From Chryseobacterium sp. G0186 (GTDB taxonomy: Bacteria > Bacteroidota > Bacteroidia > Flavobacteriales > Weeksellaceae), in NCBI RefSeq assembly GCF_003815675.1, contig NZ_CP033918.1, positions 868,001 through 932,000 on the forward strand: a stretch of 64,000 bases of DNA, read 5' to 3'. Below are positions 50,805-64,000 of this stretch, piece by piece (the first letter of the stretch is position 1; every line of letters starts with the position of its first letter). The notes below the pieces were generated by a model that was given only the letters and a program-made list of their open reading frames with translations, did no database searches and had not been told where the DNA came from. The position numbers and the translations under genes were made by a program.

Positions 50805-52211
50805 TTAGCTATTATATAAAGCTATATATTTTTCTGCAGATTTCTCCCATGCAAAATCAAAATTCATATTGGCATGAATAAGTTCTTTCATGACTCCTTT
50901 TTGATTATAGATTCCCAGCGCCCTGTTCATCGCATGAACAATATCATCCACTCCTGCATAGGTAAAATTCAGTCCTGCTCCCCCTGTTGAAATATCTTCT
51001 ACGGTATCTCTAAGGCCGCCTGTATATCTTACCACGGGAACTGTGCCGTATCTCATGGAGTACATCTGATTCAGGCCACATGGCTCTACTCTTGATGGCA
51101 TCAACAGAAAATCCGCTGAGGCATAGATCTTATGGGAAAGATGTTCTTTATATCCTAAATCCAGGGCAAAATTGGTATAGGTATAATCATATTCTTTCAG
51201 TTTATTTTCAACATAGGTATTTCCTGAACCTAAAATCATGATATTTAAGCCTCCATAGTTTTGCTTGATGCTTCGCCATACTACATCCGGAAGCAGATCG
51301 GCTCCTTTTTCGGTGGCAAATCTTCCAATGAATGCGAATAATGGAAGTTCAGGCTTTAAACCATATTCCTTGCACAGTTTTTCTTTATTCTTCTTCTTTT
51401 GAGCAACCGCATTTTTGCTATTAAAATTAAAATCCAGCATAGGGTCAGTTTCAGGATTCCAGACTTCTGTATCAATCCCGTTGATAATTCCGTAGGCCTT
51501 TCCGAATTCCTGACGGACCAAACTTTCTAATCCGCGGAAGCTTATGAAAAGTTCTTCCAGATATCCCTCGGAAACAGTGGTGAAAGCATGAGAACATTTG
51601 ATCATACTGGCCAAAGGATTCATGAAGCCGTTCCAATCCATCAATCCCCATTTATAGGAATCGAAAGGCGGCATATAATTCGCCATATTCCAGCTCATCA
51701 TTCCCTGATACTCTCCATTATGAATGGTTCCAATGGTTTTTACGCCCTGTAAAAATTCAAATTCAGGACAGTGTTCCACCATAAAAGGAACTAATCCGGT
51801 GTGATAATCGTGACAGTGTAAAACATCCGGACGGATCTCCATGGCACACAACCAATGCAGTATTCCTTGCTGGAAAGCCAAAAACTGAAAACTCTCATCC
51901 TGATAACCATAAGGATTATCTCTGTCTAATAACCCGGGAATTCTCACCATATAGAGTTCAAATCCCAGAACATCAGATTTTTCTTTCATTACCTGAACCT
52001 GCAGCATATTGGATCCCTGATGGATAAATCCGTCGAAAACAACCTCAAATTCATGATCATAGACAAAGGTTTTATTATACCATGGCATTACTACCTTAGC
52101 ATGTATTCCTTTTATTTTATTCTGGTACTTCGGTAATGCCCCGACTACATCTGCAAGGCCTCCTACTTTTGCTACAGGATAACATTCTGTACTTAAATGA
52201 TAAATAACCAT
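50805..52211 (-). CDS. glgA: Glycogen synthase
   Basis: A 468-residue GT5-family ADP-glucose starch/glycogen synthase. N-terminal substrate-binding KVGGLADVVGALPK (about 15-28), CHDYHTGLVPFM (about 133-144), NGIDTEVWNPETDP, FIGRFATEKGADLL (about 293-306) and the C-terminal catalytic PSRVEPCGLNQMYSMRYGTVPV (about 376-397). It elongates alpha-1,4-glucan chains. It lies 2 bases downstream of glgB and 2 bases upstream of the lipoprotein gene, a tightly coupled unit. Confidence 0.95.
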   Translation of the reverse strand: MVIYHLSTECYPVAKVGGLADVVGALPKYQNKIKGIHAKVVMPWYNKTFVYDHEFEVVFDGFIHQGSNMLQVQVMKEKSDVLGFELYMVRIPGLLDRDNPYGYQDESFQFLAFQQGILHWLCAMEIRPDVLHCHDYHTGLVPFMVEHCPEFEFLQGVKTIGTIHNGEYQGMMSWNMANYMPPFDSYKWGLMDWNGFMNPLASMIKCSHAFTTVSEGYLEELFISFRGLESLVRQEFGKAYGIINGIDTEVWNPETDPMLDFNFNSKNAVAQKKKNKEKLCKEYGLKPELPLFAFIGRFATEKGADLLPDVVWRSIKQNYGGLNIMILGSGNTYVENKLKEYDYTYTNFALDLGYKEHLSHKIYASADFLLMPSRVEPCGLNQMYSMRYGTVPVVRYTGGLRDTVEDISTGGAGLNFTYAGVDDIVHAMNRALGIYNQKGVMKELIHANMNFDFAWEKSAEKYIALYNS

Positions 52212-52213
52212 TT

Positions 52214-54163
52214 TTATCTTTTGTGTTTAATTCTGTGTAATTTATACTTTTTATCTTTTTTCTGTCTTAAGATAATTCCTGCTAAAGGAGATAGCTTTAC
52301 AGTCATCGTTTTTGGGTATCCCCTCCATTCTTCATATTGTTCATTCATAATTTCAGGCTGCACTCCACTGCCGCTGTATATTTCATCATCGGAGTTTAAA
52401 ATAACCTCCCAGTGTGTTCCTGCCGGAATCCCAATTTTATAATCCAATACCTGTGGGGCCAGATTCAGGACTGTCATTACAACATCTTCTCTTTTCTTCC
52501 CTTTCCTAAGATACACATAAACCGAATTCTCAAGATCATCTGCCTCTACCCATTCAAAACCGTTTTTATCAAACTGATTTTCATACAAAGCAGATTCTGA
52601 TTGGTATAGATGGTTGAGTTCTTTAACGAGATCCTGCAATCCTTTATGAACAGGATACTTCAGTAAATGCCAATCCAGACTTTGGGTAAAGTTCCATTCA
52701 CTGGTCTGCCCAAATTCATCTCCCATAAAAAGCAATTTCGCTCCCGGATGGGTATACATATATACATACAAGGTACGAAGGTTGGCGAACTTCTGCCACT
52801 CATCGCCTTTCATTTTATAGATTAAACTTGCCTTTCCGTGTACCACTTCATCATGAGACAAAGGCATCATATAATTTTCATTATACATATACATGGAAGC
52901 AAAAGTAAGTTTATGATGATGGAACTTTCTGTTAGCAAAATCCTCTTTAAAATAATCCAAGGTATCATGCATCCAGCCCATCATCCATTTCATTCCAAAG
53001 CCTACTCCACCGTCATGCACAGCTTTGGTCAATAGAGGAAAGTCAGAGCTTTCTTCAGCAATAGTTATAATACTGTTTCCAAACTCCTTGTAAACAGCAG
53101 TATTGAATTCCTGTAGAAAAGCCTTTGCTTCAAGATTTACATTTCCACCATATATATTAGGCTCCCACTCGCCCTCATTTCTTGAATAATCCAAATGAAG
53201 CATTGAGGTTACGGCATCTACACGCAGCCCGTCTGCATGATATCGGTCCAGCCAGAACATTGCATTGGAAATCAGAAAAGATTTCACTTCATTTCGTCCA
53301 TAATTGAAAATATGTGATTTCCAATCGGGATGAAATCCTTTTTTCGGATCTTCGTGCTCATATAAACTGGAGCCATCAAAAAGATACAGTCCATTGGCAT
53401 CACCCGGAAAATGAGACGGCACCCAATCCAGAATAACGCCGATATTGTTTCTATGAAGTTCATCAATCAGAAACATCAGGTCCTGCGGAGAACCGAAACG
53501 TGAGGTTGCCGCATAAAAACCCGTAATCTGATATCCCCAACTCGGGTCATAGGGATACTCCATCACCGGCATAAACTCTACATGGGTAAACCCCATTTCC
53601 TTGACATAAGGAACAAGTTTCCTTGCTATATCCCGATAATTTAAAAAACGGTCAGGTGTCTCTTCCTCTCTTACCCATGAGCCCAAATGCAGCTCATAAA
53701 CAGAAATCGGAGCATTCAGGTTGTTTCTCTCCCAACGATTCATCATCCAATCCTCATCATTCCATTCATACCAAGTGGTAGAAACCAATGATGCTGCCTG
53801 AATATTCTGTTCCCAGCTTAATGCATAGGGATCACTTTTCTCCAGGATCTCGCCTCTTTCTGTTTCAACAGCATATTTATATAAGGTTCCCCAGGTAAGT
53901 CCGTCAATGAACCCTTCCCAGATTCCAGATCCGTCCCATCTTGGAAATAAAATATGATCCTTGTGATTCCAGTTATTAAAGTTCCCAATAACAGAAACTT
54001 TTTTTGCATGGGGTGCCCAAACTGAAAAATAAACTCCTTTTACCCCTTCTTTCTCCACCGAATGTGCCCCAAATTTACCATACAGCTTATAATGTCTACC
54101 CTCTTTAAAAAGGTACACGTCATGATCAGTGAAAAGCGTATAGGTTTTAACAGAATTCATCAA
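52214..54163 (-). CDS. glgB: 1,4-alpha-glucan branching enzyme
   Basis: A 649-residue GH13 branching enzyme. It has an N-terminal CBM48 with VSVIGNFNNWN, then the (beta/alpha)8 catalytic domain: GVILDWVPSHFPGD (about 229-242), GLRVDAVTSMLHLDY (nucleophile Asp about 302), TIAEESSDFPL (acid Glu about 358) and MPLSHDEVVHGK (about 424-435). It makes alpha-1,6 branches. First gene of the operon. Two ATGs occur in tandem at the start. The divergent region 54164-54358 (195 bp) to the esterase gene is AT-rich; I see no consensus promoter box in it. Confidence 0.95.
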   Translation of the reverse strand: MMNSVKTYTLFTDHDVYLFKEGRHYKLYGKFGAHSVEKEGVKGVYFSVWAPHAKKVSVIGNFNNWNHKDHILFPRWDGSGIWEGFIDGLTWGTLYKYAVETERGEILEKSDPYALSWEQNIQAASLVSTTWYEWNDEDWMMNRWERNNLNAPISVYELHLGSWVREEETPDRFLNYRDIARKLVPYVKEMGFTHVEFMPVMEYPYDPSWGYQITGFYAATSRFGSPQDLMFLIDELHRNNIGVILDWVPSHFPGDANGLYLFDGSSLYEHEDPKKGFHPDWKSHIFNYGRNEVKSFLISNAMFWLDRYHADGLRVDAVTSMLHLDYSRNEGEWEPNIYGGNVNLEAKAFLQEFNTAVYKEFGNSIITIAEESSDFPLLTKAVHDGGVGFGMKWMMGWMHDTLDYFKEDFANRKFHHHKLTFASMYMYNENYMMPLSHDEVVHGKASLIYKMKGDEWQKFANLRTLYVYMYTHPGAKLLFMGDEFGQTSEWNFTQSLDWHLLKYPVHKGLQDLVKELNHLYQSESALYENQFDKNGFEWVEADDLENSVYVYLRKGKKREDVVMTVLNLAPQVLDYKIGIPAGTHWEVILNSDDEIYSGSGVQPEIMNEQYEEWRGYPKTMTVKLSPLAGIILRQKKDKKYKLHRIKHKR

Positions 54164-55561: not shown

Positions 55562-56977
55562 ATGAAATTAATCAACAAAAAAAATAAAAATTATACTCAG
55601 GTTTTTCATTTATTCACTGAAGAAGAATGGGCAAAAACAAGTAAAAACTTCAATAAAAACATTCCTGTTTTCTTTACAGGAAAAAAGCATGAGGTTTTTG
55701 TAAACGCACATGAAGAGGGAATCACTTATTTTATTGGCCTGGGAAAATCTACATTAGAAAACTTCGAGTTTCAGCAGGTAGGTGTAAAATTTTCACAAAA
55801 TCAAAAAGAAAAACTACAGGCAATTCCTACTCTAATGCTTGCTGATTTCCTTAATGAAAAACAGTTTGAAGAATTTGTAAAAGGACTATTCATGGGAACT
55901 TACAATTATCCTTTTGAAAAGAATCATCCTTTCTGGAATACTAAATTTGAACTTCACTTTGAAAATATAAGCCAGAAAAGACTGGATCATATCAGCCAAA
56001 AAACAGAAGCATTGAGTAACGGTCAAATCGCCTGTCAGGAGTGGCTAAACAAACCGGCCAACCTTAAGAAACCCGATATTTTCAGCGCATACCTTAAAAA
56101 TATTGCTAAAAAATACGATTTAAAATATACTTCCTTCAACAGGAAGAAATGTGAAGAACTTGGACTGGGGGCTTACCTTGCCGTTAATCAGGGAAGTGCC
56201 TATGATGCTGCATTCACTATTTTAGAATACAAAACCACCGTTAAAAATGCCAAAACATTCGGATTGGTCGGAAAGTGCGTATTGTTTGATACCGGCGGAG
56301 TCTCATTAAAAAACTCAGCCAATCTGCATTACATGAAATCTGATATGGGCGGTGCCACAGCAGTGCTTGGAACATTAATCTATGCTGCAGAAATGAAACT
56401 TCCGGTTAATATCACAGTGATTCTTCCCATCACAGATAATGCCATTTCCGAGAAAGCTCTCCTGCCAAGTGATGTCATTACAGCTTATAATGGAAAAACG
56501 ATTGAAGTTCTTGATACCGATGCAGAGGGCAGACTGATCCTTGCTGACAGCCTATCCTATCTTGCTAAAAATTATAAAACAGATTTTCTGATTGATCTTG
56601 CCACTTTAACGGGAAGCTCGGTAAGGATGTTTGGAGATACCTGTGCAGCCTTATTTTCCAATGATGAAGAACTGAAAAATACATTAATAAAAACCGGAGA
56701 TCATACCAATCAAAGGCTTTGGAATCTTCCTTTATGGGACGTATGGAAAGATGAGATTCAATCTGATGTAGCCGACCTGAAAAACATGTCCCTGAAACCT
56801 TTGGGAGACTGTATCATTGCCGCAAAATTCCTAGAGCATTTCATTGAAAATCATCCTAAATGGGCCCATTTGGATATTGCAGGTGTCGCCTTTGGAAGTG
56901 TAGGCTACGCCAAGGAAAAAGCAGCAACCGGTTTTGGGGTTCAGTTACTCGTGGATTTAATTGAAAATTATCACTAA
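55562..56977 (+). CDS. M17 leucyl aminopeptidase
   Basis: A 471-residue cytosolic aminopeptidase. The C-terminal catalytic domain has the two-zinc signatures: FDTGGVSLKNSANLHYMKSDMGG (about 243-265), the M17 motif in LDTDAEGRLILADSL (about 319-333) and LIDLATLTGS (about 344-353). The N-terminal domain (1-160) is divergent, as usual. It releases N-terminal residues from peptides and may process peptide products. It ends 141 bases before the ATP-grasp cluster and is separated from it by a new promoter box. Confidence 0.92.
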   Translation: MKLINKKNKNYTQVFHLFTEEEWAKTSKNFNKNIPVFFTGKKHEVFVNAHEEGITYFIGLGKSTLENFEFQQVGVKFSQNQKEKLQAIPTLMLADFLNEKQFEEFVKGLFMGTYNYPFEKNHPFWNTKFELHFENISQKRLDHISQKTEALSNGQIACQEWLNKPANLKKPDIFSAYLKNIAKKYDLKYTSFNRKKCEELGLGAYLAVNQGSAYDAAFTILEYKTTVKNAKTFGLVGKCVLFDTGGVSLKNSANLHYMKSDMGGATAVLGTLIYAAEMKLPVNITVILPITDNAISEKALLPSDVITAYNGKTIEVLDTDAEGRLILADSLSYLAKNYKTDFLIDLATLTGSSVRMFGDTCAALFSNDEELKNTLIKTGDHTNQRLWNLPLWDVWKDEIQSDVADLKNMSLKPLGDCIIAAKFLEHFIENHPKWAHLDIAGVAFGSVGYAKEKAATGFGVQLLVDLIENYH

Positions 56978-57118: not shown

Positions 57119-58333
57119 ATGGAGGAGAAAATCATAGTATGTATTTCATGCTATTACAAGGGCTATGACTTCATGGATGAAATGAAGAAGCTTGGTAATA
57201 AAATAATCTTAGTAACATCAGAAAATCTTAAAGAAAAAAACTGGCCCTGGCATGCCATTGATGAGGTATTTTATATGCCTGAACTAAAGCCCTCTGTCTG
57301 GAACCTTGAGCATCTGATTCAGGGATTTTCACATCTGATGAAAACCAGAAAGGTAGATGCTGTTGTAGCCCTTGATGACTACGACGTGGAAAAAGCGGCC
57401 CTGATCCGGGAAACTTTTCGTATTCCCGGTATGGGACAGACTACCCATCGTTATTTCAGGGACAAGCTGGCTATGCGACAAAAGGCAAAGGATTCAGGAA
57501 TTAATGTCCCTGAATTTACCGCCGTGTTTAATGATGATGTAGTGAATGATTTTGTAGACAAAGTTCCTGCACCATGGGTGTTAAAGCCCCGTTCAGAGGC
57601 TTCTGCATCAGGAATAAAGAAAATCACATCCAAAGAACAGCTTCATGAAGCCCTGGATACCCTTGGAGAAGAACGTCATCTTTTCTTATTGGAAAGTTTT
57701 AAGCCGGGAGATGTTTATCATGTAGATAGTCTTACCTTTAATAAGGAAATTGTATTCACTTCTGCCTCAAAATATTTAGCTCCTCCTATGCAGGTTTCCC
57801 ATGAAGGCGGTGTATTCAGATCTAAAACATTGGGAAGATATTCAGAAGAATTTAAAGCGCTTGAAGACATCAATGCTAAGGTGCTTTCCAACTTCGGATT
57901 AGTGAATGGAGCAACCCATACAGAATTCATAAGAGGCAAAGAAGATGGCAAATGGTATTTCCTTGAAACTTCCTCAAGGGTTGGTGGTGCCCATATTCCT
58001 GATCTGGTTGAAGCTTCAAGCGGAATCAATATATGGAGAGAATGGGCCAAAATTGAAGATGCTCTTTTAAGAAATAAAAGCTATAGCGTCGCTCCTCCCA
58101 CAGGATATTATTCAGGGTTGATTGTTGCCCTGATTAAAGATAAAGAGCCCGATTACAGCAAATTTGAATGCAAAGAAGTCGTAAAATTTATTCCTATAGA
58201 CTATCATGTTGGAATTGTTTACAAATCCAGTGATGCTTCAGTTGTAGAGGAAAAATTAGATAGTGCTGCGGAAATGATTAATGCAGAAATGCTTAATATT
58301 TTGCCTCCAAAAAGCAGTAAACTGAGTAGTTAG
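57119..58333 (+). CDS. ATP-grasp ligase 1
   Basis: A 404-residue ATP-grasp protein. A Rossmann-like pre-ATP domain (about 1-115, KIIVCISCYYKGYDF and VDAVVALDDYDVEKAALI) is followed by the grasp: PWVLKPRSEASASGIKKI (ATP-binding Lys about 156), LLESFKPGDVYHVDSL, and the metal-binding FLETSSRVGGAHIPDLVEAS (about 280-299). It belongs to the carboxylate-amine/biotin carboxylase-like group that joins a carboxylate to an amine through an acyl phosphate. Substrate unknown. First gene of a six-gene co-directional cluster; the hydrolase follows after 34 bases. Confidence 0.85.
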   Translation: MEEKIIVCISCYYKGYDFMDEMKKLGNKIILVTSENLKEKNWPWHAIDEVFYMPELKPSVWNLEHLIQGFSHLMKTRKVDAVVALDDYDVEKAALIRETFRIPGMGQTTHRYFRDKLAMRQKAKDSGINVPEFTAVFNDDVVNDFVDKVPAPWVLKPRSEASASGIKKITSKEQLHEALDTLGEERHLFLLESFKPGDVYHVDSLTFNKEIVFTSASKYLAPPMQVSHEGGVFRSKTLGRYSEEFKALEDINAKVLSNFGLVNGATHTEFIRGKEDGKWYFLETSSRVGGAHIPDLVEASSGINIWREWAKIEDALLRNKSYSVAPPTGYYSGLIVALIKDKEPDYSKFECKEVVKFIPIDYHVGIVYKSSDASVVEEKLDSAAEMINAEMLNILPPKSSKLSS

Positions 58334-58367
58334 AATACCTATAACCATTAAAAGTAAAGATATCTCA

Positions 58368-59081
58368 ATGCCTCATATAGAACATACAGAGTATTATTCG
58401 AATATACTGGGAATGAGCCTTAAGGTGGAAGTAACCGGACATTATGGTCATCCTATCATTATGTTTCCTACTTCTCAGGGACAATATACCCAGAACCATG
58501 ATTTTCATCTCAACGGAAGTATTAACTGGTTTATTGAACAGGGAAAAGTAAAGCTTTATAATATCCAAACCATCGATAGCTGGAGCTTTTATGATGAAAA
58601 AATAACACCACAGCAAAGGATAAGAAATTACGAAAGATATGTGCAGTTTCTGATTAAGGAGTTTGTTCCCTACATCCAGAAACTTCATAAAACCCATCGT
58701 GTAGCAGTGGCCGGAGCCAGTTTTGGAGGCTACCATGCTGCTAACTTTGCCTTTAGGTTTCCCGATGTGGTTTCTCATCTGTTTTGCCTTTCAGGGGCAT
58801 TCAGTATAAGGAACTTTATGGATGGTTATTCTGATGAACTCGTCTACTTCAACTGCCCAAGGGAGTTTGTAAGAAATGATGAAGCCTGGAAGTACAAGCA
58901 TATGCATATTATATTGAGTACCTCTGATCAGGACATCTGTAAGGACAAAAATATTGAGATGGCTGAAATCCTGAGAGTAAAGGGCATCGATTTTTGGTAT
59001 GACGAAAGAAAGTGGATCGGTCATGACTGGCCTCTATGGAGAATGGTATTTCCTACATTTATAGGAGCTTACTTCTCTTAA
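58368..59081 (+). CDS. Esterase-family alpha/beta hydrolase in the ATP-grasp cluster
   Basis: A 237-residue cytoplasmic hydrolase. The nucleophile elbow is VAGASFGGYHAANFA (Ser about 119), a candidate acid is in TSDQD (about 185), and the His is in KWIGHDWPLWRM (about 219). The N-terminal GHYGHPIIMFPTSQGQ resembles the esterase D group. In this setting it could remove an ester or release an acyl group from a pathway intermediate. That role is inferred only from its neighbours. Separated from the next gene by 126 bp without a clear promoter box. Confidence 0.82.
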   Translation: MPHIEHTEYYSNILGMSLKVEVTGHYGHPIIMFPTSQGQYTQNHDFHLNGSINWFIEQGKVKLYNIQTIDSWSFYDEKITPQQRIRNYERYVQFLIKEFVPYIQKLHKTHRVAVAGASFGGYHAANFAFRFPDVVSHLFCLSGAFSIRNFMDGYSDELVYFNCPREFVRNDEAWKYKHMHIILSTSDQDICKDKNIEMAEILRVKGIDFWYDERKWIGHDWPLWRMVFPTFIGAYFS

Positions 59082-59207
59082 AATATTTACGTGGGTTGTT
59101 TGATAAATACCCTTAAACCTATTGAAAATATAATGAGGTGGTTTAAGAAACGATCATTTAACAAAAGATAAAATAAACAAAAATACAGACCCTTAAAAAC
59201 AGAAATT

Positions 59208-60161
59208 ATGACAAAAAAAGTAGGAATTCTATTCGGTATGGAAGACACATTTCCCTGGGCATTTATAGATAAGGTAAATGAACTGGGTGGCGGAGATATC
59301 GTGGCAGAACCTGTTACCATTGACAAACTGGAACAAGGTGCAGATTATGGCTATGCAGTGATTATTGATAGAATTTCACAGGACGTTCCCTTTTACAGAG
59401 CCTATCTGAAAAATGCAGCATTGAATGGTACTTATGTAATCAATAATCCGTTCTGGTGGAGTGCTGACGAAAAGTTTTTCAACAATGCCCTTATGAGCAA
59501 ACTCGGAATTCCATTGCCCAAAACGGTACTGCTTCCATCACATGAAAGACCAACCGATACTTCTGAAACTTCATTCAGAAACTTGAAATTCCCCCACGAT
59601 TGGGAATATATCTTTAACTACGTTGGCTTCCCTGCCTATATGAAACCTCATGATGGCGGAGGATGGAAAAGCGTTTACAGAGTGGAAAATCCTGATGATC
59701 TTTGGAGTAAACTGGGAGAAACTGAGCAACTGGTTATGATGGTTCAGGAAGAGATTGTCTTTGATGACTATTACAGAGTTTATTGTCTGGGCCAAAAATA
59801 CGTTCATATCATGCCCTACGAACCAAGAAACCCTCATCATCTGAGATATGCTACCACCCATCAGACACAGGGTGAAGAACTCGAAAAACTATTGAAAACC
59901 ATCCATGACTATACGATCAAAATGAATAAAGCATTAGGATATGATTTCAATACTGTAGAATTTGCGGTAAGAGATGGTATTCCTTACGCCATCGATTTCT
60001 GTAATCCTGCACCTGATGCAGATAAAAACTCTGTAGGAGAAGAGAATTTTGCATGGATCATTGAGCATGCTGCTAAACTGGCTATAGAAAAAGCTAAGGA
60101 ATATGTTCCGGGGAAACCGAATATCACTTGGGGAACCTTTGTGAAAGATTCCATAAAATAA
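59208..60161 (+). CDS. RimK-like ATP-grasp ligase 2
   Basis: A 317-residue ATP-grasp protein. The N-terminal domain (KKVGILFGMEDTFPWAFIDK and YAVIIDRISQDVPFYRAYL) leads to the ATP-binding FPAYMKPHDGGGWKSVYRV (about 144-162) with Gly-rich loop, VQEEIVFDDYYRVYC, and the metal-binding tail AIDFCNPAPDAD (about 265-276). It is not closely similar to the first ATP-grasp protein of the cluster, so they probably act on different substrates. The amine ligase gene follows after 31 bases. Confidence 0.83.
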   Translation: MTKKVGILFGMEDTFPWAFIDKVNELGGGDIVAEPVTIDKLEQGADYGYAVIIDRISQDVPFYRAYLKNAALNGTYVINNPFWWSADEKFFNNALMSKLGIPLPKTVLLPSHERPTDTSETSFRNLKFPHDWEYIFNYVGFPAYMKPHDGGGWKSVYRVENPDDLWSKLGETEQLVMMVQEEIVFDDYYRVYCLGQKYVHIMPYEPRNPHHLRYATTHQTQGEELEKLLKTIHDYTIKMNKALGYDFNTVEFAVRDGIPYAIDFCNPAPDADKNSVGEENFAWIIEHAAKLAIEKAKEYVPGKPNITWGTFVKDSIK

Positions 60162-60192
60162 TATTGAAAAAGAAATAAAAAAACACAAGAAA

Positions 60193-61311
60193 ATGCATCA
60201 ATTTACTATTGGAATCGAAGAAGAATATCAAATCATTGATGTTGAGAGCAGAGACCTCATTTCTCATGTTTCAAAGATTATTGAAGGGGGAAAGGCTGTA
60301 TTAAGTGAAAATTTAAAGCACGAAATGCACGAATCCATGATTGAAATGGAAACAGGAATCTGCCAGAACATCCAGGAAGCCAGAGCTGAATTAACCAATT
60401 TAAGAAGACACCTGATTAACACAGCCCATGAACAGGGACTACGTGTTTCAGGAGGAGGTACTCATCCTTTTTCGCATTGGTCTGATAATAATATCACTCA
60501 GGGAGAAAGATACATCAAAATTGTTGATGATATGGGAGATGTAGCCCGGGAAAACCTTATTTTCGGACTTCACGTACACATTGGAATTCCCAATCGGGAA
60601 GAAGGAGTAAGAATTCAAAACGTAATGCGTTACTTTTTGCCCCATGTCTATGCCTTATCTACCAATTCTCCATTTTGGATCGGCAGATATACCGGTTTTA
60701 AATCCTACAGACAGGAAATTTTTGTAAAATTCCCTAGAACAGGTATTCCAAGTTATTTCAACTCCCTGGCTGAATTTGACAGTTACGTTGATCTTCTGGT
60801 AAAAACCGGCACCATTGACAATGCCAAGAAAATATGGTGGGATTTGAGGGTTCATCCTTTCTATCCTACGATAGAATTCAGAATTTGTGATATGCCGATG
60901 AGAATTGATGAAACCGTGTGTCTTGCTGCCATCATGCAGAGTTTAGTGGCTAAAATCTATAAGCTGCACCAGCAAAACCTGAGCTTCAGGAGCTATAGAA
61001 GACTGCTGTTAAATGAAAATAAATGGCGTGCTTCCAAAAGTGGCATTGAGGCTCATCTGATTGATTTCGGAAAAGAAGAATCTGTTCCCTATCCTATTTT
61101 ATTAAAGGAACTTTTAGAGTTTATTGATGACGTTGTAGATGATCTGGGATGCCGCCATGAAGTGGAATACGCTTGGAAAATTCTGGAAAACGGAACGGGG
61201 GCAGACCGACAGCTTCAGATCTTCAAAGAGACAGGAGATCTGACGAAGGTTGTAGATTATATGATCTCAGAAACTGAGTATGGTATAACACACGGCGAAC
61301 CCGCTTCATAA
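60193..61311 (+). CDS. YbdK-type carboxylate-amine ligase (GCS2 family)
   Basis: A 372-residue member of the glutamate-cysteine ligase family 2 fold. It starts FTIGIEEEYQIIDVESRDL (metal and ATP-binding Glu cluster, residues about 8-11), with HEMHESMIEMETGIC, RVSGGGTHPFSHW (about 95-107), FGLHVHIGIPN (about 118-128) and ALSTNSPFWIGRYTGF. E. coli YbdK has weak glutamate-cysteine ligase activity in vitro; the cellular substrates of cluster members like this are unknown. The full set of Glu and His ligands appears present, so the enzyme is probably active. Confidence 0.85.
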   Translation: MHQFTIGIEEEYQIIDVESRDLISHVSKIIEGGKAVLSENLKHEMHESMIEMETGICQNIQEARAELTNLRRHLINTAHEQGLRVSGGGTHPFSHWSDNNITQGERYIKIVDDMGDVARENLIFGLHVHIGIPNREEGVRIQNVMRYFLPHVYALSTNSPFWIGRYTGFKSYRQEIFVKFPRTGIPSYFNSLAEFDSYVDLLVKTGTIDNAKKIWWDLRVHPFYPTIEFRICDMPMRIDETVCLAAIMQSLVAKIYKLHQQNLSFRSYRRLLLNENKWRASKSGIEAHLIDFGKEESVPYPILLKELLEFIDDVVDDLGCRHEVEYAWKILENGTGADRQLQIFKETGDLTKVVDYMISETEYGITHGEPAS

Positions 61312-61344
61312 TATTTTTGGTAACTTTACAAAAAATATGATGTA

Positions 61345-62178
61345 ATGAAAGATATTCGAATTGCTCTGTTGGACATGAACAACAACCATGTTAATCAAGG
61401 CTTTAGAAACATTAAAGAAATTTCTGAAGCGTTCCGGCAGAATTCTGAAGAAAACGTAATCATTGAGACATTTGATGTAAGATTTAAGGATGAAATGCCA
61501 AAAATTGAGGACTTTGATATTTTCATTTCTTCAGGCGGACCCGGAACTCCACACAGAGAAGGTTTTGAATGGGAAGAAAGGTTTGCTCATTTTTTAGATA
61601 CCGTTTTTGAACACAATCAATACAATGAAGATAAAAAGTATCTCTTTCTGATTTGTCATTCATTTCAATTGGCAAGCATTCATTGGAAGCTGGGCAATAT
61701 CTGCAAAAGAAAATCCTATTCCTTTGGCGTAATGCCTGTTCACAAAACAAAGGAAGGCAGAAATGAGTTTTTATTTAAGAATCTTCAGGATCCTTTCTAT
61801 GCCGTAGATTCCAGAGCTTATCAATTCATTGAACCTGATCATGATCGTTTTGAAGAATTGGGAATGACGGTGATGGCTATTGAGAAATTCCGTCCCCATA
61901 TCAATCTGGAAAGAGCGGTAATGGCTGTTCGTTTTTCAGATGAGATATTCGGGACACAGTTTCATCCGGAAGCAAATCCTCATTCATTAATTGAGAACCT
62001 GAAAGATGATAAGAACAGAGAAGCTATGATCGAAAACTTCGGGATGGAAAAATATCTTGAAACCATGGACAGAATAGATGATGAAGATAAAATCATTCTG
62101 ACCAGACACCAGATTCTTCCAAGATTTCTTCAGTTCGCAAAAAAAAACATTTTGAGAGAAGTTGAGTCCCTGGCTTAA
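61345..62178 (+). CDS. Class I glutamine amidotransferase-like protein
   Basis: A 277-residue protein of the class I GATase fold. The oxyanion segment is SSGGPGTPH (about 56-64), the nucleophile Cys is in LFLICHSFQLAS (about 109), and the catalytic His-x-Glu is in GTQFHPEANPHS (about 207-209). The triad is intact, so it could release ammonia from glutamine or, as in some relatives, hydrolyse gamma-glutamyl bonds. No synthetase partner domain is fused; ATP-grasp partners lie in the same cluster. Last gene before the hairpin at 62306-62331. Confidence 0.83.
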   Translation: MKDIRIALLDMNNNHVNQGFRNIKEISEAFRQNSEENVIIETFDVRFKDEMPKIEDFDIFISSGGPGTPHREGFEWEERFAHFLDTVFEHNQYNEDKKYLFLICHSFQLASIHWKLGNICKRKSYSFGVMPVHKTKEGRNEFLFKNLQDPFYAVDSRAYQFIEPDHDRFEELGMTVMAIEKFRPHINLERAVMAVRFSDEIFGTQFHPEANPHSLIENLKDDKNREAMIENFGMEKYLETMDRIDDEDKIILTRHQILPRFLQFAKKNILREVESLA

Positions 62179-62305
62179 AAGATCAAATTAACATCAACCG
62201 CAAAAGTCTGTATCAATATGAAAGCCAATGGTTTTCAAAAACTTAATTATTCAGTTTTTTTGTGACTTTTGTGGTTCAAATTTATTTCCATCATTAATAC
62301 AATAC

Positions 62306-62331
62306 AAAATCGAGCTTTCCCGCTCGATTTT
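62306..62331 (+). terminator. Terminator-like hairpin just upstream of the last cluster gene
   Basis: AAAATCGAGC (62306-62315) and GCTCGATTTT (62322-62331), a perfect 10-bp stem with a 6-base loop, then TT. It lies 22 bases before the ATG at 62354, so it ends the upstream transcript or acts as an attenuator. Confidence 0.7.
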
Positions 62332-62353
62332 TTACCCTCACAAAAGAAAAAAT

Positions 62354-63538
62354 ATGATCCCAAAATACAGAAAACAGTTTAATCAAGAGTTTTCACAAGA
62401 AAAATATAATCAACTCAAAGATATTCTGAAGCAAAAAGGAAATATAGAACCGGGCTTTAGAATATCTGAAAGTCCCATTTTCCTTACCAAAGAATTTGAA
62501 GGCAAATTGCTTGATGCCAGCGAAAGTATTATCAGCCAGATTAAGGCACTTCCATCTGAAACTCTTAAAAAAGCAGTCCCTGAAAACTGCAAGGTTCCCA
62601 ATGATACAGACCAACCTCATTTTTTCACTATCGATTTTGGAGTCTGCAAAAGTGAAAATGGAGAGATCGAGCCTCAACTGATAGAGCTCCAAGCTTTCCC
62701 ATCGTTATACACTTTTCAAAAAACCTTTGAAAATACGTTCTGTGAAGTCTATCCTTTCCTTTCAGATATTCGGAATACCATGCCGGCTGAAACCTTTCAA
62801 CAACATTTGAAGGACTTAATCGTAGGCGATGAAAATCCTGAGCATGTTATTCTCCTTGAAATTTTCCCTGAAAAACAGAAAACAGCAATTGATTTTGCTT
62901 TAACAGAGCAATTGTTAGGGATAAAAACAGTCTGTCTGACAAAAGTAAAGAAAGAGGGTAGAAAACTGTACTATGAAAACAATGGCAAGCTTACTGAGAT
63001 TAAAAGAATCTACAATCGGGTGATATTTGATGAATTGGACAGAATTCCTGATCTTGTCACTGAATTTGATTTCCGCGAAGAGGTGGATGTAAAATGGATC
63101 ACTCATCCCAACTGGTTCTTTAAAATTTCAAAATTCCTTTTACCTTTATTAAAGCATCAATTTGTTCCGAAAAGCTATTTCCTAGATGAATTTCCTGAAA
63201 CTGAAAAGCTTGAAGATTTTGTATTGAAGCCTTTATTTTCATTTGCAGGAAGCGGCGTCAATTTAAATCCGACAAAAGAAATCACCGATGGTATTGAGGA
63301 TAAAGAAAATTACATTTTACAGAGAAAAGTAACCTACGAACCCATCTTTGAAGACATTCATGGCGAGTTTTCAAAAGCAGAGATCCGTTTGCTGTATATC
63401 TGGAAAGAAAATGAAGACCGCCCTATTCTATTGGAAAACCTGGGAAGAATGACAAAAGCTGCTATGGTGAATGTAGACTTTAATAAAAAAGATGCCATCT
63501 GGATTGGAAGCTCCAATGCTTTTTTTACTGTAGAATAA
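62354..63538 (+). CDS. Divergent ATP-grasp-like ligase 3
   Basis: About 394 residues. Two stretches fit an ATP-grasp enzyme of the circularly permuted type: an N-terminal acidic substrate region (FFTIDFGVCKSENGEIEPQL and IELQAFPSLY) and a C-terminal FVLKPLFSFAGSGVNLNPT (Lys and Gly-rich loop, about 287-305), then ILQRKVTYEPIF. It has no fused amidase domain. I chose ATG 62354 (MIPKYRKQFNQEF). The frame is open 42 codons upstream, but that stretch includes the hairpin and an unconserved-looking segment. Distant similarity to glutathionylspermidine-synthetase-like ligases is an impression only. Confidence 0.72.
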   Translation: MIPKYRKQFNQEFSQEKYNQLKDILKQKGNIEPGFRISESPIFLTKEFEGKLLDASESIISQIKALPSETLKKAVPENCKVPNDTDQPHFFTIDFGVCKSENGEIEPQLIELQAFPSLYTFQKTFENTFCEVYPFLSDIRNTMPAETFQQHLKDLIVGDENPEHVILLEIFPEKQKTAIDFALTEQLLGIKTVCLTKVKKEGRKLYYENNGKLTEIKRIYNRVIFDELDRIPDLVTEFDFREEVDVKWITHPNWFFKISKFLLPLLKHQFVPKSYFLDEFPETEKLEDFVLKPLFSFAGSGVNLNPTKEITDGIEDKENYILQRKVTYEPIFEDIHGEFSKAEIRLLYIWKENEDRPILLENLGRMTKAAMVNVDFNKKDAIWIGSSNAFFTVE

Positions 63539-63665: not shown

Positions 63666-64000
63666 ATGCACTTAAAGACCATTGAAGAACAACTATTTCA
63701 GCCATTGGGTTTGACCTGTTCAACTATTGTAGAAGATCCGGAATGCAGGGAATATTCAGGTTTTAGCTTTACTTTAAACGATTTAAAAATCAAATTCAGA
63801 ACCTCAAAAATAACCCCTACCAAAACAGGGCAGTTTGTAACCATCTGGAAACGGAATGAAAATGGAGAAACAACTCCTTTTGAAACCACTGATACTATTG
63901 ATTTTTTTCTTATAGCAGCTTTTAAGGATAATCTTTCCGGAATATTTATTTTTCCTAAAAATATATTAGTAGAAAAAGGTATTGTGTCTGATGGTAAAAA
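63666..64000 (+). CDS. mepB: MepB-family protein, N-terminal part (window edge)
   Basis: A reading frame from ATG 63666 through the window end (111 full codons). It reads MHLKTIEEQLFQPLGL, REYSGFSFTLNDLKIKFRTS, KITPTKTGQFVTIWKR and FFLIAAFKDNLSGIFIFPKN. This matches the MepB family (YSGFSF, KFR.AKITP.K.GQFV.WKR). In Staphylococcus aureus mepB lies beside the mepA efflux gene, but its function is unknown. A link to the ATP-grasp cluster upstream is not shown; the 127-bp gap has no clear promoter or terminator. Confidence 0.75.
   Translation, partial: MHLKTIEEQLFQPLGLTCSTIVEDPECREYSGFSFTLNDLKIKFRTSKITPTKTGQFVTIWKRNENGETTPFETTDTIDFFLIAAFKDNLSGIFIFPKNILVEKGIVSDGK

Follow-up and report, generated by a model that had tools for sequence, protein, structure and literature searches.

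The closest described relatives of the enzymes considered here belong to several separate systems. Escherichia coli YbdK has weak glutamate-cysteine ligase activity, plant glutamate-cysteine ligase is likewise of the GCS2 family, class I glutamine amidotransferases (GATases) carry a nucleophile elbow of the form C-x-G-x-Q with Gly two residues after Cys, and the Puu pathway gamma-glutamylates and deglutamylates amines. Amidoligase neighbourhoods with similar kinds of ligase, a GATase and hydrolases were reportedly predicted by Iyer et al. in 2009. E. coli YgiC and YjfC are described as peptidylpolyamine synthetases (PMC12568646). The present study analyzes a cluster of six consecutive plus-strand genes, A to F, at positions 57119–63538 of a 64,000-nucleotide window of the Chryseobacterium sp. 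G0186 genome (5.0 Mb, two contigs; window G000:C1:868001-932000), all six of which were recovered by an open reading frame (ORF) check of the window, as an initial annotation of this DNA had claimed. The cluster is real, widely shared in Bacteroidota and uncharacterised, and its probable role is to assemble a small compound, glutathione-like or a peptide-amine, from amino acids and amines. We put at roughly 0.48 the probability that it is a pathway building and turning over a small gamma-glutamyl-type oligo-amide, with D acting first, then F or a substitute for F, then C. Among the matches listed from the open-licence literature, no title or abstract opening described such a cluster.

The genes are conserved as a group in relatives and are co-inherited, a point on which the initial annotation had staked the cluster beforehand. 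Relatives of C were taken from one genome per species (at least 592 confirmed, the best 80 kept, a set biased to close relatives of the query) and gene order was read by profile searches on six-frame translations, with fragmented contigs included both here and in the 71 C places considered below. The order B-C-D-E-F on one strand was found in 71 of the best 80 loci, and 32 of the 80 had an M17 aminopeptidase followed by A-B-C-D-E-F with nothing else recognised. These 80 loci came from Chryseobacterium, Elizabethkingia and other Weeksellaceae, from Maribacter, Polaribacter and Winogradskyella, and from Dyadobacter, Cyclobacteriaceae and Saprospiraceae, and the relatives with a 94–97% identical C were Chryseobacterium. 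At one locus (L052, CP078104.1) the alignments of the M17 gene, B, C, E and F are each split in two, as frameshifts would cause, which suggests that the locus is decaying or poorly assembled.

An even sample of 198 Bacteroidota genomes, with match thresholds of E 1e-50 for A and E 1e-15 for D, E and F, gave C in 72 genomes, or in 69 with C at 50% identity or more, when three weak matches (G065, G142 and G215, 32–42% identity) are omitted; a further, incomplete C place in G079 (31%, 65 residues) was outside the comparison. A, E, F and D matched in 43, 50, 60 and 62 genomes, of which 43/43, 49/50, 58/60 and 58/62, respectively, also held C, and 122 of the 198 held none of A, C, D, E and F. Joint counts exceeded expectation for A with C (43 vs 15.6), C with D (58 vs 22.5), C with E (49 vs 18.2), C with F (58 vs 21.8) and D with F (56 vs 18.8). 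The last was the tightest of ten gene pairs, with 10 discordant genomes, so that F, which had been described as a last gene set apart, is among the most tightly co-inherited members. Hypergeometric p values for the ten pairs ran from 2.7e-12 to 2.4e-37 with genomes treated as independent. A control ATP-grasp family, TIGR01380, was depleted with C (9 of 45, expected 16.4, lower-tail p 0.0065). At 51 of the 71 C places outside the window genome, the next recognised gene was D, E, F or a circularly permuted ATP-grasp gene discussed below. Within the genus sample, C was present in 33 of 35 genomes and absent from G028 and G029; in these two, the 9.2-kb stretch from a second, upstream esterase to F, searched as DNA, gave nothing except one 32-base match in G028, among the best 40 of 131 and 166 candidate places scored, a search that diverged esterase or aminopeptidase copies could escape. 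The same search matched G009 and G031 at 76–80%. The cluster is co-inherited, and sporadically lost, as a unit. Unrelated genes that are neighbours by chance could explain why D, E and F are unlinked in some genomes, but even unlinked copies co-occur, and the gene order is shared by different families; we regard chance as exceedingly improbable.

The claim of three ATP-grasp ligases was correct, since A is assigned by Pfam and the AlphaFold models of C and F match solved ATP-grasp ligases over near-full length. For F (mean predicted local distance difference test, pLDDT, 93.6) this match covers residues 1–393 and is a full-length match to the fold of eukaryotic glutathione synthetase, GspS and YgiC, via YjfC and YgiC as best structural matches; F scored 19.4 bits against Pfam GSP_synth (PF03738), below the gathering cut-off of 29.3. 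The gap in Z to the glutathione synthetases is about 1, so the two groups are nearly tied. F differs from E. coli YgiC/YjfC and glutathionylspermidine synthetase in being without the amidase domain and in a sequence match of only E 0.006–0.011. It is present in 58 of the 69 genomes whose C is at least 50% identical, and the other 11 all carry the permuted ATP-grasp gene (G; the single member scanned scored 36.7 bits against PF14403, cut-off 32) right after C, in the order C-G-E. The permuted gene occurs in 12 of the 198 genomes, the twelfth of which (G192) also has F and carries a 39% identical permuted copy on another contig. From these sequences the swap looks like a pattern of non-orthologous replacement, and we infer that F and the permuted enzyme catalyse the same reaction.

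An alternative explanation could be polyamine conjugation, in which F would link spermidine or another polyamine to a peptide, as its top matches YgiC/YjfC do, and D and E would attach gamma-glutamyl groups to amines and remove them, as happens in the Puu pathway. At Dyadobacter-type loci of several Cytophagales, F is followed by a class III aminotransferase (a gene cluster of 12 loci, identified from its one scanned member, L064), which would suit such turnover, but it is lineage-specific, F is nearly tied between YgiC/YjfC and the glutathione synthetases, and no Puu-type oxidase or dehydrogenase was seen among the neighbour families scanned, most families being unscanned. We consider this explanation unlikely. 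A sodium:solute symporter is fused to F in L173:6637-9240 (867 amino acids (aa), SSF E 2.4e-36) and adjoins it in L176:8984-10369, hinting at the substrate class of F. In L149, D and F are separated by an M29 peptidase, and in L189, D is followed by an S10 carboxypeptidase; the repeated peptidases and the uptake carrier, each in few loci, fit peptide or amine metabolism.

D is a YbdK-type GCS2 ligase, as annotated, scoring 219.5 bits against Pfam GCS2 (cut-off 21) and 533.2 against PRK13515 (curated cut-off 371), a model that none of 14 control genomes matched above cut-off. It matches the YbdK structure 1r8g over 334 residues (E 1.6e-48), but D is not known to share the glutamate-cysteine ligase activity of YbdK. 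E is a Pfam GATase (37.1 bits vs 22.8) in which Cys104, His207 and Glu209 are invariant in 92/92 aligned sequences, window included. The intact class I triad claimed for it therefore stands, but the elbow is not the usual one, with Ser106 in place of Gly in 92/92 and Gln retained in 91/92. B, annotated as an alpha/beta hydrolase, is indeed a Pfam Esterase (37.6 bits vs 22), and Ser118 (69/72 sequences), Asp189 (72/72) and His219 (69/72) plausibly form its triad. D and A retain long conserved stretches; catalytic residues are conserved across the alignments rather than missing, and no pathway-assigned family model scored above its cut-off for these proteins, which leaves the genes unassigned to separate known pathways.

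A scored 35.6 bits against Pfam ATP-grasp_4 (cut-off 27) and is related in sequence to L-amino acid alpha-ligases of the BL00235-like kind, matching the solved structures 4wd3 (E 3e-17) and 3vot (E 2.6e-9). It adjoins the M17 aminopeptidase in Weeksellaceae-type loci, and the same-strand order M17-A was found at 38 of 151 C loci. The two lie downstream of F in L090, L095, L100, L093 and L096, and away from C in 5 of 20 A loci (L193, L194 and L196 in the order esterase-M17-A; L197 and L199 with no esterase recognised), A itself being unrecognised among called ORFs in 3 of the 20. A distant lineage (L158, L161, L164) has the order C-G-E-esterase-A. The upstream M17 aminopeptidase and second esterase go with A; the six genes are real, but the linked set is larger and reaches upstream to both.

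C gave no Pfam match at E 0.001, but its model (mean pLDDT 93.0) matches solved ATP-grasp ligases over residues 3–298, with the fold of RimK, LysX and ArgX. Residues K146, P147, G150-G152, E181, E251, D263 and N266 are kept in at least 90% of 62 sequences and have roles that we presume by analogy with ATP-grasp enzymes. C differs from RimK, LysX and ArgX in being only 14–18% identical, in scoring 37.7 bits against the RimK family TIGR00768 (curated cut-off 143.4) and in having lineage-specific Lys-rich tails. Its fold also matches the graspetide ligase PsnB, and Chryseobacterium carries graspetide loci, as described for chryseoviridin (PMC8939145); C or F could be the cyclising ATP-grasp of a ribosomal peptide. 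However, the window gaps show no evident precursor gene, being touched only by ORFs of 26–37 aa (conservation and more distant precursors lying outside this check), and the terms "GCS" and "glutathione" do not occur in the main text of that paper. Graspetide synthesis appears very improbable. In a group of small genomes a histidine ammonia-lyase family gene follows C, identified as such in L143 and by clustering in L145, L147, L151 and L153.

The genes, their co-inheritance, the C and F folds, the conservation of catalytic residues and the exchange of F for the permuted ATP-grasp were observed directly; from these we infer the reactions, their order and the product of the proposed oligo-amide pathway. 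D would form a gamma-glutamyl (or similar acyl) amide via an acyl phosphate; F would activate the free carboxylate of this product and add a second amine or amino acid, with glutathione synthetase, glutathionylspermidine synthetase and YgiC/YjfC as models for the step; and C would add a third unit, or hand the chain to an acceptor, in the manner of RimK and LysX. E, its triad intact and its elbow altered, would more likely hydrolyse a gamma-glutamyl bond than supply ammonia. B and the second esterase may remove ester or thioester adducts, and A with the M17 aminopeptidase may act as an accessory module, making and cleaving a dipeptide that is either a building block or a breakdown product. The initial annotation had proposed either an amide-linked molecule made without the ribosome or a modified protein or cofactor, a proposal that fits but is broad.

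A more specific version, which we find rather unlikely, is an unrecognised phylum-wide low-molecular-weight metabolite made alongside bacillithiol, with the D-F pair recreating plant-type glutathione synthesis at the level of fold, C extending the product and the permuted ATP-grasp taking the second step in some lineages. D and F do recall the plant-type glutathione/homoglutathione pathway in their GCS2 family and synthetase fold, but D resembles YbdK far more than it does the plant model, F shares only 8–15% identity with glutathione synthetases, and the plant-type pathway has no equivalents of C, E, B and A. GshB (TIGR01380) gave no match at E 1e-20 in the window genome.

Several observations weigh against the oligo-amide pathway. 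The hypergeometric p values ignore shared ancestry. D and F occur without C in G199 and, together with E, in G209 (L192), where the three are adjacent and C has no match at E 0.001, and D occurs alone in G062 and G222. D is absent from 11 and E from 20 of the 69 genomes with a C ortholog, so neither is obligatory. At 20 of the 71 C places the next recognised gene is none of D, E, F or the permuted ATP-grasp; these include the three weak C matches, and many of the remaining genomes have D and F at other positions, indicating that the genes tend to co-occur even when non-adjacent. BshC is present in 196 of 198 genomes, this one included, and bacillithiol is probably present with it; there is therefore no empty thiol niche, and the set can be explained without a glutathione-like thiol. 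GshB is above cut-off in G131 and G249, both of which also hold the cluster. Finally, among 141 C proteins, 44 end in a tail of 25 residues or more in which Lys makes up at least 15% (0 of the 33 Weeksellaceae-type loci L021-L053). Two Winogradskyella tails contain a helix-hairpin-helix-like domain (L089, HHH_5, 27.3 vs 27 bits; L095, DUF4332, 26.4 vs 23.2); the only other tail scanned, that of L064, gave no Pfam match. These tails suggest contact with a polyanion, or with a protein or nucleic-acid complex, and would favor a polyanion or protein acceptor over a free small molecule. They are the best argument for protein modification, in which a RimK/LysX-like C would extend the C-terminus of a protein, or a carrier, with amino acids, D and F would make or extend the tag, and E and the peptidases would remove it, an explanation that we regard as rather unlikely. 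Tails on C that resemble histone H1 in being rich in Lys, Ala and Pro were seen in L089:8998-10377, L095:8998-10350, L055, L059 and others.

Coordinates of the features are collected in Table 1. In the window genome A, C, D, E and F each gave a single match at the thresholds used. The first genes had been described as tightly spaced, which holds for A-B (34 bp) but not for B-C (126 bp); the remaining gaps are 31 bp (C-D), 33 bp (D-E) and 175 bp (E-F). The hairpin reported before F is present but does not set F apart, since, of 32 related loci (L021-L053, excluding L051), just 3 showed a perfect stem of at least 10 pairs in the E-F gap, and in further lineages, L054 for instance, the two genes overlap. 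F had been read as a 436-aa ORF from 62228, but M1 of the 394-aa version is kept in at least 90% of 63 aligned sequences, window included, and the alignment therefore makes 62354 the most likely start. Glycogen synthase-like and branching enzyme-like genes, judged by eye from their translations, lie on the minus strand at 50805-54163, just upstream of the second esterase, and the start of a MepB-like gene (63666-63998) runs off the window end.

Table 1. Positions of the cluster genes and associated features in the window.
Feature	Position	Strand	Description
Second esterase, PF00756	54359..55483	+	374 aa; Pfam Esterase E 3.1e-23
M17 leucyl aminopeptidase	55562..56977	+	471 aa; adjoins A; Peptidase_M17 E 1.6e-103
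A, ATP-grasp, L-amino acid ligase-like	57119..58333	+	404 aa; Pfam ATP-grasp_4, PDB 4wd3 match
B, small PF00756 esterase	58368..59081	+	237 aa; Pfam Esterase
C, RimK/LysX-fold ATP-grasp ligase	59208..60161	+	317 aa; most conserved member
D, GCS2/YbdK carboxylate-amine ligase	60193..61311	+	372 aa; PRK13515, YbdK 1r8g match
E, class I GATase-fold protein	61345..62178	+	277 aa; Cys104, His207, Glu209; Ser106 in elbow
Terminator-like hairpin, E-F gap	62306..62331		10 bp stem, loop 6, T-run; poorly conserved
F, ATP-grasp of eukaryotic glutathione synthetase/GspS/YgiC fold	62354..63538	+	394 aa from most likely start

About one third of the sampled Bacteroidota genomes (72/198) hold C, nearly always with partners, in a cluster in which no step has an assigned function. 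The identity of its product would fill a metabolic gap in a major phylum, would show the joint role of YbdK-like and YgiC-like ligases, and would give substrates for standalone amide-forming enzymes useful in biocatalysis.
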